Source: Clostridia bacterium
GTDB taxonomy: Bacteria > UBA6262 > WVXT01 > JAUXBS01
DNA length: 9,781 nt
Direction: 5' to 3'
NCBI GenBank assembly: GCA_030618495.1
Contig: JAUXDE010000064.1
Coordinates: 1 to 9,781, forward strand
Positions within the stretch are counted from its first letter, which is position 1. The number at the start of each line of letters is the position of its first letter. The notes under the pieces are model-generated. The model did no database searches. It was given only the letters and a program-made list of their open reading frames with translations, and was not told the DNA's origin. Made by a program: the position numbers and the translations under genes. Shown here piece by piece: positions 2-3,915 of this stretch.

Positions 2-442
2 GGTAAAGTATTTGCTGACAACAGGTCTGCGAGGCATAATTATCACATTTCCGATACCTTTGAGGCAGGTATGGTTCTTACCGGCCCCGAAGTGAAGTCA
101 ATAAGAAACGGCAAGGCGGCTTTAAAGGACGGGTTTGCGTGCATTGAGGACGGGGAAGTGTTCCTGCAGAAGGTGCATATAAGCCTTTACGAGAAAGCCA
201 GTGGTAAGGATTATAACCCCGAGAGAAAAAGAAAGCTGCTCCTGCATAAGAGTGAAATCAGTAAACTTACAGGCAAGGTCCAGGAAAAGGGATTAACCCT
301 GGTGCCGCTTCAAATATATCTGAATCACGGTAAGATAAAGGTTTCGCTGGGGCTGGCAAAAGGCAAGCGGAAACGCGACAAGAGAGAAGATATCAAGAAA
401 CGGGAAGTAAACAGGGAAATAAGAAGGTCCCTGAAAAGATAA
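2..442 (+). CDS. smpB: SsrA-binding protein SmpB (5' end outside window)
   Basis: SmpB binds the tRNA-like domain of tmRNA and carries it into the empty A site of stalled ribosomes during trans-translation. The open frame runs from base 2 with no start codon. The first visible residues (GKVFADNRSARHNYHI) match the SmpB N-terminal region, so only a few residues including Met are missing. The ATG at 71 is internal, because conserved SmpB sequence lies upstream of it. Family signatures follow in order: the FEAGMVLTGPEVKSIR stretch, the RKLLLHKSEI stretch, KGLTLVPLQIY, and the basic C-terminal tail GKRKRDKREDIKKREVNREI, which in the family enters the mRNA channel. The family is about 145-160 residues long, and 146 are visible. 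The stop lies 62 nt before the tmRNA gene, the usual functional neighbour. Identification is very secure. Confidence 0.96.
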   Translation, partial: GKVFADNRSARHNYHISDTFEAGMVLTGPEVKSIRNGKAALKDGFACIEDGEVFLQKVHISLYEKASGKDYNPERKRKLLLHKSEISKLTGKVQEKGLTLVPLQIYLNHGKIKVSLGLAKGKRKRDKREDIKKREVNREIRRSLKR

Positions 443-504: not shown

Positions 505-855
505 GGGGGCGCACAGGTTTCGACAGGGGTTAATGGATGTAATACTGCAGGCCGAGGTTTGTCGAAGGCTCGTTAATCAATCGACAGTAAACTTTAAGTG
601 CAGCTTAATAAGCTAGCAGTTTAGTCCCTTTTAAGGGATTACGCTCGCCCTGTTTTGTCCGTTGGGCGGGGATGAGCGTCATAAAGACGGAATGGTTTTT
701 TCCTTTGCCTTGAAGGAAAAGATGAAGACTTAAAGGCTGGTGCCTACCGGATCCTGCTTGTGGGAGCCTGAAGGCATGAGATTAATACACAGGCAAAGCT
801 TGTTGACGTATTACTGAAGTACTTCTGGACAGCGGTTCGATTCCGCTCGCCTCCA
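505..855 (+). ncRNA. ssrA: transfer-messenger RNA (tmRNA, ssrA)
   Basis: This one-piece tmRNA rescues stalled ribosomes and tags their products. The 5' acceptor strand GGGGGCG (505-511) pairs with CGCCTCC (848-854). The third pair is G:U, the alanine identity element. Base 855 is the discriminator A. The next bases are TTA, so CCA is not encoded and must be added by nucleotidyltransferase. The T arm is AGCGG (831-835), loop TTCGATT, CCGCT (843-847). A conserved GGTTTCGACAGGG stretch follows the acceptor strand. PK1 can be drawn as CGAG 553-556 with CTCG 569-572, plus TGTCGA 560-565 with TCGACA 581-586. Downstream, CGCCC 646-650 pairs with GGGCG 664-668, and its loop TCCGT 658-662 pairs with ACGGA 687-691 (PK2). 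GCCTT 707-711 with AAGGC 733-737 and TGCCT 741-745 with AGGCA 772-776 fit PK3 and PK4. The gene is secure; the tag reading frame is not (see findings). Confidence 0.95.
587..624 (+). other. tmRNA tag-coding segment, reading frame ambiguous
   Basis: PK1 ends at about 586-587 and the resume codon normally lies about 11-14 nt later, here 598-601. Resuming at GTG 598 or CAG 601 reads (A)VQLNKLAV or (A)QLNKLAV and stops at TAG 622-624. Resuming at GCA 600 fits the family's upstream context best (a TAAGT-like stretch with A at -4) and gives the canonical GCA GCT TAA TAA ending. That choice adds only two residues to the tRNA-borne alanine. Going upstream in this frame is blocked by TAA at 588-590. 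The remaining frame reads ...CSLIS and stops at 614-616, which does not resemble a degradation tag. I cannot decide between the first two options from sequence alone. Confidence 0.5.
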
Positions 856-888
856 TTAAGCAGGAAGAATAAATTGTTGGGAGTTAAA

Positions 889-1263
889 ATGGGAAAAAAG
901 AGAGTGCTTGTGATTGATGACGACAAGGACTGCATTCAGCTTGTAAAGGATTTTCTTGAGAGCAAGGATTATGAGATAATAACGGCATTTGAAGGCGAAA
1001 CGGGCTTTGCAAAGGCGAAAACCGTAAAACCGGACCTTATTATCATGGATATCATGATGCCTGTGATGGACGGTATAACCGCCCTGCAGAAAATGAAGGA
1101 AGATCCTTTGACCTGTGATATACCGGTTATAATGCTTACGTCAAAAGACAAGGATGAGGATGTCCTGGCCGGGTATAAACACGGGGCGGAGTATTACATC
1201 ACGAAACCGTTTGATTTAAAGCAGTTGATTCTCGGGGTGAACCTGATGTTGAAACAGGATTGA
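889..1263 (+). CDS. Stand-alone response regulator receiver protein (1)
   Basis: A 124-residue CheY-like receiver with no output domain. It should accept a phosphoryl group from a histidine kinase or phosphotransfer protein and act through protein-protein contact in the cytoplasm. Acidic pocket residues D10, D11 and D12, phospho-acceptor D54 (IIMDIMMP), switch Thr84 (MLTS) and Lys106 (TKPF) are all present, so the site looks functional. The start is taken at ATG 889 because GGGAG (879-883) lies 5 nt upstream and the encoded protein begins MGKKRVLVIDDD, as usual for the family. A TTG at 874 in the same frame would add five residues that do not look like receiver sequence. It lies 33 nt after the tmRNA and 3 nt before a second receiver. 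The partner is inferred to be the kinase encoded downstream. Confidence 0.93.
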   Translation: MGKKRVLVIDDDKDCIQLVKDFLESKDYEIITAFEGETGFAKAKTVKPDLIIMDIMMPVMDGITALQKMKEDPLTCDIPVIMLTSKDKDEDVLAGYKHGAEYYITKPFDLKQLILGVNLMLKQD

Positions 1264-1266
1264 GGC

Positions 1267-1647
1267 ATGAAGAAAAAATCAAGGACAAAAATACTGTTAA
1301 TCGATGATGACCCGCAGGCGCTGGAAATTACCGAGGCAAGGTTAAGGGCGAACGGGTATAAGTTCAAGGGAGCGCTTGACGCGGTTGAAGGTATAAATCT
1401 TATACGGTCCGAGAAACCGGATATCATTCTTCTTGACGTTGAAATGCCGGGGGTTGACGGTTTTTCTTTATGCAAAATAATAAAGGGCGATAGAAGTATA
1501 AGTAAAATCCCTATTATTTTCATAACGGCAAAGGAATTAATCGGAGATGTGGAAAAGGGTTTTGAAGTGGGGGCGGTTGATTATGTGCTTAAACCCGTTA
1601 ACTGGGACCGCCTTATGGGAAAAATAGAGAAACTGTTGTCTTCCTGA
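1267..1647 (+). CDS. Stand-alone response regulator receiver protein (2)
   Basis: A second single-domain receiver of 126 residues. Acidic pocket D13-D15, phospho-acceptor D57 (ILLDVEMPG), Thr87 (FITA) and Lys109 (VLKP) are visible, and the C-terminal helix ends a few residues past the fold, leaving no room for an effector. The sequence is clearly different from the preceding receiver, so this is not a recent tandem duplication. The start ATG 1267 is 3 nt after the previous stop, with AGG at 1256-1258 as a weak ribosome-binding site. Close spacing suggests translational coupling. It probably shares signalling with the kinase that follows 10 nt later. Which kinase phosphorylates it, and its target, cannot be read from the sequence. 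Confidence 0.93.
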   Translation: MKKKSRTKILLIDDDPQALEITEARLRANGYKFKGALDAVEGINLIRSEKPDIILLDVEMPGVDGFSLCKIIKGDRSISKIPIIFITAKELIGDVEKGFEVGAVDYVLKPVNWDRLMGKIEKLLSS

Positions 1648-1657
1648 ATATATTTAC

Positions 1658-3547
1658 ATGAAATTAATTGAACGCATAAAGAAAAAGACGGTATTTCTCA
1701 GCATAAGAAACAAGTTAATTATACTGTTCTTCGTTATAGCGTTACTGCCCGTCATACTGGGTTATATTACCCTTCTCGTTTACCAGAAGTCCATTAAAGA
1801 ACAGGTTCGCGCAAGTCATTTTGCCATGGAAGAGAGCCTGGTGAAACTCGTTGACCAGTACGTTGTTGACTGCCAGAAGGTGATTATAGACGCTTCATAC
1901 CAGCAAACGATTATTGACGGTGTGGCGTACTGGAACCTTCCCAAACTCAGGAACAGGTTTTCAAGTGTACACAAGAGATATAAGAACTTTACCTTTATTC
2001 TTGCAGAGGACAGGAATGGGGTTGTTAAAGTTTCATACCCTCAAAACAGCGGTATTATCGGGAAAAAGTTTTCACCAAAGGTGAATTTAAGTATTAAGAA
2101 GCCGGGTATATCGGATGTGTTCTGCTCCAATTATATCCGTGAGCTTGCGGTCGTGGTTGTTTATGCGCCGGTTAAGAACAGCGCCGGAAGGATTATCGGG
2201 ACATTGATAGGCGGGATTGATATAAAAACGCTTTCCAGCATGCTGGACAAGGTAAAACCGGACAAGGACAGTTATATATACATAGTGGACAGGAAAGGCG
2301 TTATTCTCTCACATCCGGACGAGAGCATGTTATTGACTGATTTAAGCGAAGAAAGCAGTATGGTGAAGAAGGTAATCCAGGATAAAACAGGTGTTGAAAG
2401 TGTTATGGATTACAGGGGCACCAAGATGCTTGCCGCGTATAAGCTGACACCGCTTTCAAAATGGGGGGTTGTTTTCCAGGAGCCGTTCAGGAATGCCTAT
2501 GCAAACCTGATACGGTTAAAAATATTTTTCATAATATTGACGCTCGTGGGACTTGCGGTTGCCCTGTATTTCAGCATTCGTTTCAGCAGTATGATTACTG
2601 CTCCTATCCATGACCTTCAGCATGGAGCCGAGATGATCGGCGCCGGCAACCTTAATTACCGCCTGAACATCAAAACGAGGGACGAAATAGAAAAACTGGC
2701 AAAAGAGTTTAATAGTATGGCTGAGAAACTAAATGAGTCTTACAGCGGGTTTGATGAAAAAATAAACAGCGCCACCAGGGATCTGAAGGAAGCGCATAAG
2801 GAAATAGAGGATAAGAATTTAAAGCTTAAAGAATCTGACAGGTTGAAATCGGAGTTTCTTGCCAACATGTCTCATGAGTTGAGGACTCCCATGAATGCCA
2901 TAATAGGATTTTCTTCACTGATGGAGGAGCGGATTTACGGTGAAATTTCCGCAAAGCAGGAAGATGCTCTTGGGAAGATAGGAAAGAACGCAAAGGCGCT
3001 GCTGCAATTGATAAACGATATACTTGACCTTTCCAGGATTGAAGCGGGGAAGGTTGTCATGAGTCCTTCTGAGTTTAAACTTACGCAGTTGGTTGATGAG
3101 ATAGTCGTCACAATGGAACCGCTGATACGGCCAAAGAGTTTTGAACTTACCAGGAACATAGATGAGCGGACACCGGAATTGTTTACCGACAGGAACAGGT
3201 TGAAGCAGATTATCATTAACCTGCTTACGAATTCAATCAAGTTCACCAAAGAGGGAAGAATAGCAATTGACGCGAGGGTTGTTGATCCCGGAGATAAGGT
3301 TGAAATATCGGTTGAAGATACGGGAATAGGCATACATGAGAATGATTTACCTTATATGTTCGAGGAGTTCAGGCAGGCTGACGGTTCATCAACAAGGCAG
3401 TACGGCGGGACGGGGCTGGGCCTGTCTATAACGAAAAAACTACTTGACCTTCTGGGCGGTGAAATAGAGGCCCAAAGCGTTTACGGCAAGGGAACGAAGA
3501 TGGTTTTCAGAATTCCGGTGAAAATGGAGGAAACTGAAAAAGTATGA
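1658..3547 (+). CDS. Membrane sensor histidine kinase (Cache-like sensor, HAMP, HisKA, HATPase_c)
   Basis: A 629-residue inner-membrane sensor kinase. A first membrane helix spans about residues 20-43 and a second about 287-307. Between them is a roughly 240-residue extracytoplasmic region with Cache-type features (YIYIVDRKGVILSHPD at 206-221, then a W-G-VVFQEP strand near 269-276), suggesting small-ligand sensing. A HAMP domain (about 306-358) and a short coiled coil (about 360-400) lead to HisKA. The phospho-acceptor is H406 in FLANMSHELRTPMN. The ATP-binding domain has N-box N521/N525, G1 box DTGIGI (554-559), F box near 568-571 and G2 box GGTGLGLS (583-590), so the catalytic set is complete. 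There is no fused receiver. The start at 1658 has no clear Shine-Dalgarno sequence but is needed to include the first membrane helix. The stop overlaps the next receiver gene, the most likely direct phosphorylation partner. Confidence 0.95.
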   Translation: MKLIERIKKKTVFLSIRNKLIILFFVIALLPVILGYITLLVYQKSIKEQVRASHFAMEESLVKLVDQYVVDCQKVIIDASYQQTIIDGVAYWNLPKLRNRFSSVHKRYKNFTFILAEDRNGVVKVSYPQNSGIIGKKFSPKVNLSIKKPGISDVFCSNYIRELAVVVVYAPVKNSAGRIIGTLIGGIDIKTLSSMLDKVKPDKDSYIYIVDRKGVILSHPDESMLLTDLSEESSMVKKVIQDKTGVESVMDYRGTKMLAAYKLTPLSKWGVVFQEPFRNAYANLIRLKIFFIILTLVGLAVALYFSIRFSSMITAPIHDLQHGAEMIGAGNLNYRLNIKTRDEIEKLAKEFNSMAEKLNESYSGFDEKINSATRDLKEAHKEIEDKNLKLKESDRLKSEFLANMSHELRTPMNAIIGFSSLMEERIYGEISAKQEDALGKIGKNAKALLQLINDILDLSRIEAGKVVMSPSEFKLTQLVDEIVVTMEPLIRPKSFELTRNIDERTPELFTDRNRLKQIIINLLTNSIKFTKEGRIAIDARVVDPGDKVEISVEDTGIGIHENDLPYMFEEFRQADGSSTRQYGGTGLGLSITKKLLDLLGGEIEAQSVYGKGTKMVFRIPVKMEETEKV

Positions 3548-3915
3548 AAAAAGTACTTGTAGTCGAGGATAATGCTGACAACCGCGAGGTTATCAGGACC
3601 GTTCTGAACCATCACGGCTATGAAGTGGTGGAAGCGGTTAATGGCGCGGAGGGGATAGAAAAGGCGGGAAGTCAGAAGCCTGATATAATATTAATGGATC
3701 TTTCGCTTCCCATTATGGACGGTTGGGAAGCAACCAGGCGCCTGAAAGCGGACGATGAGTTGAAGAATATTCCGGTGATTGCCATAACGGCTCATGCTAT
3801 GAGCGGCGATGAAGCCAAAGCCCTGAAGCATGGCTGTGACGGGTATCTTGCCAAGCCCTGCACCCCGAGAAGCGTTATTGACATAATTGAAAAATATCTT
3901 AAGGCGGATGAATGA
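3544..3915 (+). CDS. Stand-alone response regulator receiver protein (3), DivK-like
   Basis: A 123-residue receiver with E8 and D9 in the acidic pocket, phospho-acceptor D52 (ILMDLSLPIMDGWEA), Thr82 (AITAHAM) and Lys104 (LAKPC). The DLSLPxMDGWEATRRLK and AHAMxGDExKALxxGCDGYLAKP signatures are typical of receivers that work with hybrid or HisKA kinases, including DivK-like and CckA-type receivers. The start ATG overlaps the kinase stop (ATGA at 3544-3547), so it is translationally coupled. GGAGG at 3526-3530 is a rather distant ribosome-binding site. Its own stop overlaps the amidase start in the same way. It may act as the separately encoded receiver of the upstream kinase. No effector domain is present. 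The fold is certain; the DivK comparison is by resemblance only. Confidence 0.93.
   Translation: MKKVLVVEDNADNREVIRTVLNHHGYEVVEAVNGAEGIEKAGSQKPDIILMDLSLPIMDGWEATRRLKADDELKNIPVIAITAHAMSGDEAKALKHGCDGYLAKPCTPRSVIDIIEKYLKADE

Follow-up and report, generated by a model that had tools for sequence, protein, structure and literature searches.

A tmRNA gene with a tag that has very probably shrunk from a normal long form to two alanine codons

The tag of a tmRNA is usually about ten residues long. The ssrA gene analysed here raises the question of what a tmRNA encodes when none of its reading frames yields such a tag, and whether it then still works as a tmRNA. The gene lies in the window, a stretch of 9,781 nucleotides from a Clostridia bacterium, whose genome (G000) is a MAG of 1.69 Mb that is 98% complete and belongs to a phylum represented by six genomes. 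We consider it very probable that the gene encodes a functional tmRNA with a tag shrunk to two codons, derived from a normal long tag.

The RNA had been described as intact in the initial annotation, and our analysis agrees. The match to the RF00023 covariance model is full-length (model positions 1–374) and its 173.4 bits compare with a gathering threshold of 47. Neither PK1 nor the tRNA-like domain shows any abnormality, and the acceptor stem (GGGGGCG/CGCCUCC), as read from the sequence, retains the G3.U pair of alanine identity. The gene for the partner protein, smpB, is located immediately 5′ of the tmRNA (Table 1). The 3′ CCA is not encoded, the window having ATTA at 855–858 and the congeneric genome (G001) ATTG, whereas a genome of the sister family (G003) encodes ACCA. 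On the 3′ side of ssrA, positions 874–3915 hold a pair of response regulators, then a histidine kinase and one more response regulator; ssrA is likewise followed by response regulators in G001 and G003. A scan of viral contigs with the PK1 pattern gave no match.

Table 1. Features of the smpB–ssrA region of the window.
Feature	Positions	Strand	Basis
smpB, truncated at its 5′ end by the window edge, with a basic C-terminal tail	2–442	+	NCBIfam NF003843.0, 199.5 bits
tmRNA gene ssrA, including the 3′ bases at the CCA-addition position	505–858	+	RF00023, 173.4 bits, 1e-69; ARAGORN 505–855
Resume-codon context UAAGU (A at −4)	595–599	+	Same in sister family
Predicted hairpin UGCAGCUU-AAU-AAGCU(A)GCA enclosing the mini-ORF	599–618	+	Predicted fold, z −3.17 for 595–645
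Complete tag message GCA GCU (Ala-Ala)	600–605	+	Position-weight matrix; same tag in G001
Tandem stop UAA UAA	606–611	+	Sequence; identical in G001
Helix 5 (UAGUCCC/GGGAUUA), 3′ of the stop	622–641	+	C-G to U-A and G-U to A-U in G001

On the 3′ side of PK1 the sequence continues as ...TTTAAGTGCAGCTTAATAAGCTAGCAGTTTAG, and the collapse of the tag noted earlier is borne out, as none of the three frames yields a normal one. The frame beginning at 600 reads GCA GCU UAA UAA (Ala-Ala-stop), that at 601 reads CAG CTT AAT AAG CTA GCA GTT TAG (QLNKLAV-stop), and that at 602 reads AGC TTA ATA AGC TAG (SLIS-stop). In order to choose among them, we scored all starts from 596 to 605 with a position-weight matrix built on the resume-codon contexts of 59 further tmRNAs whose tags could be recognised; two false ARAGORN tags and the sister species were left out of the matrix, and the result is the same with them included. 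GCA 600–602 scores 9.35 bits, against a leave-one-out median of 8.9 for true sites, and scores at all the other starts are strongly negative. With the upstream bases alone, GCA 600 scores 5.0. The site UAAGU GCA has A at −4 and a codon beginning with G. Mutational data on the Escherichia coli tmRNA indicate that the frame is set by A at −4 and that A at −5 raises reading in the −1 frame, and in natural tmRNAs G at −1 is uncommon (PMC2481249). Because the matrix favours position 600 in agreement with these data, the message is read as GCA GCU UAA UAA, and this is probably the message used in vivo. The resume point proposed in the initial annotation thus stands, as does its outcome of Ala-Ala-Ala once the alanine carried by the tmRNA is counted. 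At two encoded residues, the tag is unlike the canonical ssrA degron of some ten residues with an LAA-like end.

Alternatively, the resume point could be shifted by +1, with a restart at CAG 601 giving QLNKLAV, a lineage-specific tag ending in LAV of the kind suggested initially from CAG 601 or GTG 598. This start too has A at −4, and the nucleotides of the NKLA codons are kept (11/12 identical with G003), which a used +1 frame would also explain; moreover, the TTA-to-CTA change is silent, and in G001 the TAG is replaced by another stop, TAA. However, CAG 601 scores −14.9 bits (−12.0 for GTG 598), its upstream part alone scores −6.7 when no true site falls below −0.1, a resume codon beginning with C occurs in none of the training sites, and an A at −5 favours the −1 frame in E. 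coli (PMC2481249). Retention of the NKLA bases can also be accounted for by structure: they sit in the loop and 3′ arm of the predicted hairpin and hence need not be coding. The context points to a LAV frame that is unused, and we regard restart at 601 as very unlikely. A hairpin of the same kind, formed by other pairs, is predicted in the sister family. Such a hairpin was rejected as a hallmark of Ala-Ala tmRNAs, since pairing of the resume codon, though seen in 17/17 distinct Ala-Ala sites, extends to 35/58 ordinary tmRNAs. The tag that ARAGORN reports, AGAYRILLVGA at 736–771, is an artefact; it maps to the region of PK4, and G001 has a non-conserved counterpart, AGAFRILLMGDGWHEIKI. Given the false tag returned here, automated pipelines will probably misannotate this gene.

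Comparison with the sister family suggests how the two-codon message originated. In general, tmRNAs have a long tag, and the direction of change was most likely from long tag to mini-tag. The sister-family tmRNA resembles that of the window in its PK1, its UAAGU GC context, the smpB–ssrA order, and the hairpin at the resume codon, but its tag is normal (ADTNKLALAA and variants), with ten or nine residues ending in ALAA and a stop in the helix 5 loop. In G003 the message reads UAAGU GCT GAC ACT AAT AAG TTA GCA TTA GCC GCG TAA, and G002 and G005 carry closely similar versions. Of the 12 nucleotides of the NKLA codons, 10–11 are kept between the window and the sister family. The distance from the resume codon to AATAAG is 7 nt in the window against 9 nt in G003, so that the two differ by a net 2 nt; the out-of-frame TAATAA that G003 contains within ACTAATAAG is brought into frame in its window equivalent by this difference. 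In an ADTNKLALAA-like tag, a net change of 2 nt located 3′ of the resume codon and 5′ of the NKLA codons would thus have placed UAAUAA in frame. The in-frame deletion between two GCA codons that had been put forward does not fit this alignment, in which the change is frame-shifting. The sister-family genes differ further in that a group I intron is present in two of the three copies (L039:1325–1573 in G002 and L041:1289–1563 in G005; RF00028, 51.8 and 47.8 bits), where it splits the tmRNA after GGTTCGAT in the T-loop; G003 is intron-free. In the latter (L040:547–1001) the smpB stop codon ends one base 5′ of the tmRNA start. A full tmRNA match was not found in a further sister genome, G004, which is 83% complete.

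The short message could instead reflect a sequencing or assembly indel, as initially considered, or a decaying pseudogene, and the two genomes of the genus in which it is found are both MAGs, each from a different species. Against this, the 29 bases from 595 to 623 are identical in the separately assembled G001 (76% complete), even though the two tmRNAs as a whole are identical at only 316 of 354 aligned positions (89%) and differ at 38. Both genomes carry the message GCA GCU UAA, helix 5 shows compensating changes between them, the tRNA-like domain is intact, and smpB is intact as far as seen in the window and has its full tail in G001, where it is again located 5′ of the tmRNA. An identical segment within a diverged tmRNA argues that the collapsed tag is beyond chance or error, and we consider an artefact or pseudogene highly improbable.

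A two-codon message has precedent. Twenty-five tmRNAs that encode only Ala-Ala were described in 2025, notably in Fermentibacterota, for example in Fermentibacter daniensis (PMC11915505). The tmRNA of the window joins this rare class, with which it shares a standard one-piece structure and a message limited to two Ala codons and then a stop; unlike in the published cases, its descent from a longer tag is still visible. A pattern scan of 386 genomes recovered the two-codon arrangement in three genomes (G107, G244, and G372) of a single other phylum (42 genomes), probably Fermentibacterota, and GCC GCN TAA was present in all 30 tmRNAs examined from that phylum, with resume-context scores of 8.1–11.5. 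As in the window, a hairpin is predicted around the mini-ORF of these 30, but they use a GCC resume codon and read GCC GCN UAA in place of GCA GCU with tandem UAAUAA, and they belong to a different phylum. With the long tag still readable in the sister family of the window genus, the class looks convergent.

The tmRNA would be expected to act as follows. Alanyl-tmRNA with SmpB would enter the stalled ribosome, where the tmRNA-carried alanine would be added; resumption at GCA 600 would add Ala-Ala, and termination would take place at UAA UAA, such that each rescued protein would end in Ala-Ala-Ala. An engineered Helicobacter pylori mutant, SsrA-STOP, offers a comparison: its message is one resume codon and then stops, yet it is viable in an organism that cannot live without ribosome rescue; it appends Ala-Val and has tagging-related defects (PMC2584231). 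By analogy with this mutant, in which ribosomes are still rescued by a minimal message, the mini-tag should free ribosomes. Among the proteins encoded in G000 are also two release factors of full length and a third, short protein with an RF-1 domain.

Whether the Ala-Ala-Ala end also marks proteins for degradation bears on a further alternative, release of ribosomes without marking for ClpXP having also been raised in the initial annotation, in which the message is Ala-Ala but the end is too short to serve as a degron and proteolytic tagging has been lost. The viability of H. pylori with only Ala-Val shows that rescue can proceed with a short tag (PMC2584231). On the other hand, the main ClpX determinant is the Ala-Ala-carboxylate (PMC7652416), which an -AAA end retains, and ClpX and ClpP are present in 14/14 genomes tested; in G000, ClpX has intact GYVG, SITRDV, and RKH motifs, to which the residues that contact the Ala-Ala-carboxylate belong. 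In addition, retention of Ala-Ala sense in 30/30 distant tmRNAs examined is unexpected under neutral loss. We therefore view a role confined to rescue as possible but somewhat unlikely. With ClpX and ClpP present and the degron-contact motifs intact, Ala-Ala-Ala may remain a weak degron, and it is plausible that, besides the freeing of ribosomes, it directs proteins to ClpXP as a minimal degron.

Alanine tails are made elsewhere by RqcH. A search for NFACT_N (RqcH) proteins in the six genomes of the window's phylum found none, whereas they are present in 8/8 genomes checked from the other phylum. We tentatively raise the possibility, which we hold at less than even confidence, that the tmRNA of this genus, in which RqcH is undetected, itself writes an RqcH-like short alanine tail that acts as a minimal degron, and that it arose independently of Fermentibacterota through the 2-nt frameshift. 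The step from tag to mini-tag can be seen here because the sister family still has the long tag, and the genus thus offers a natural test of the minimum tag that a bacterium needs.
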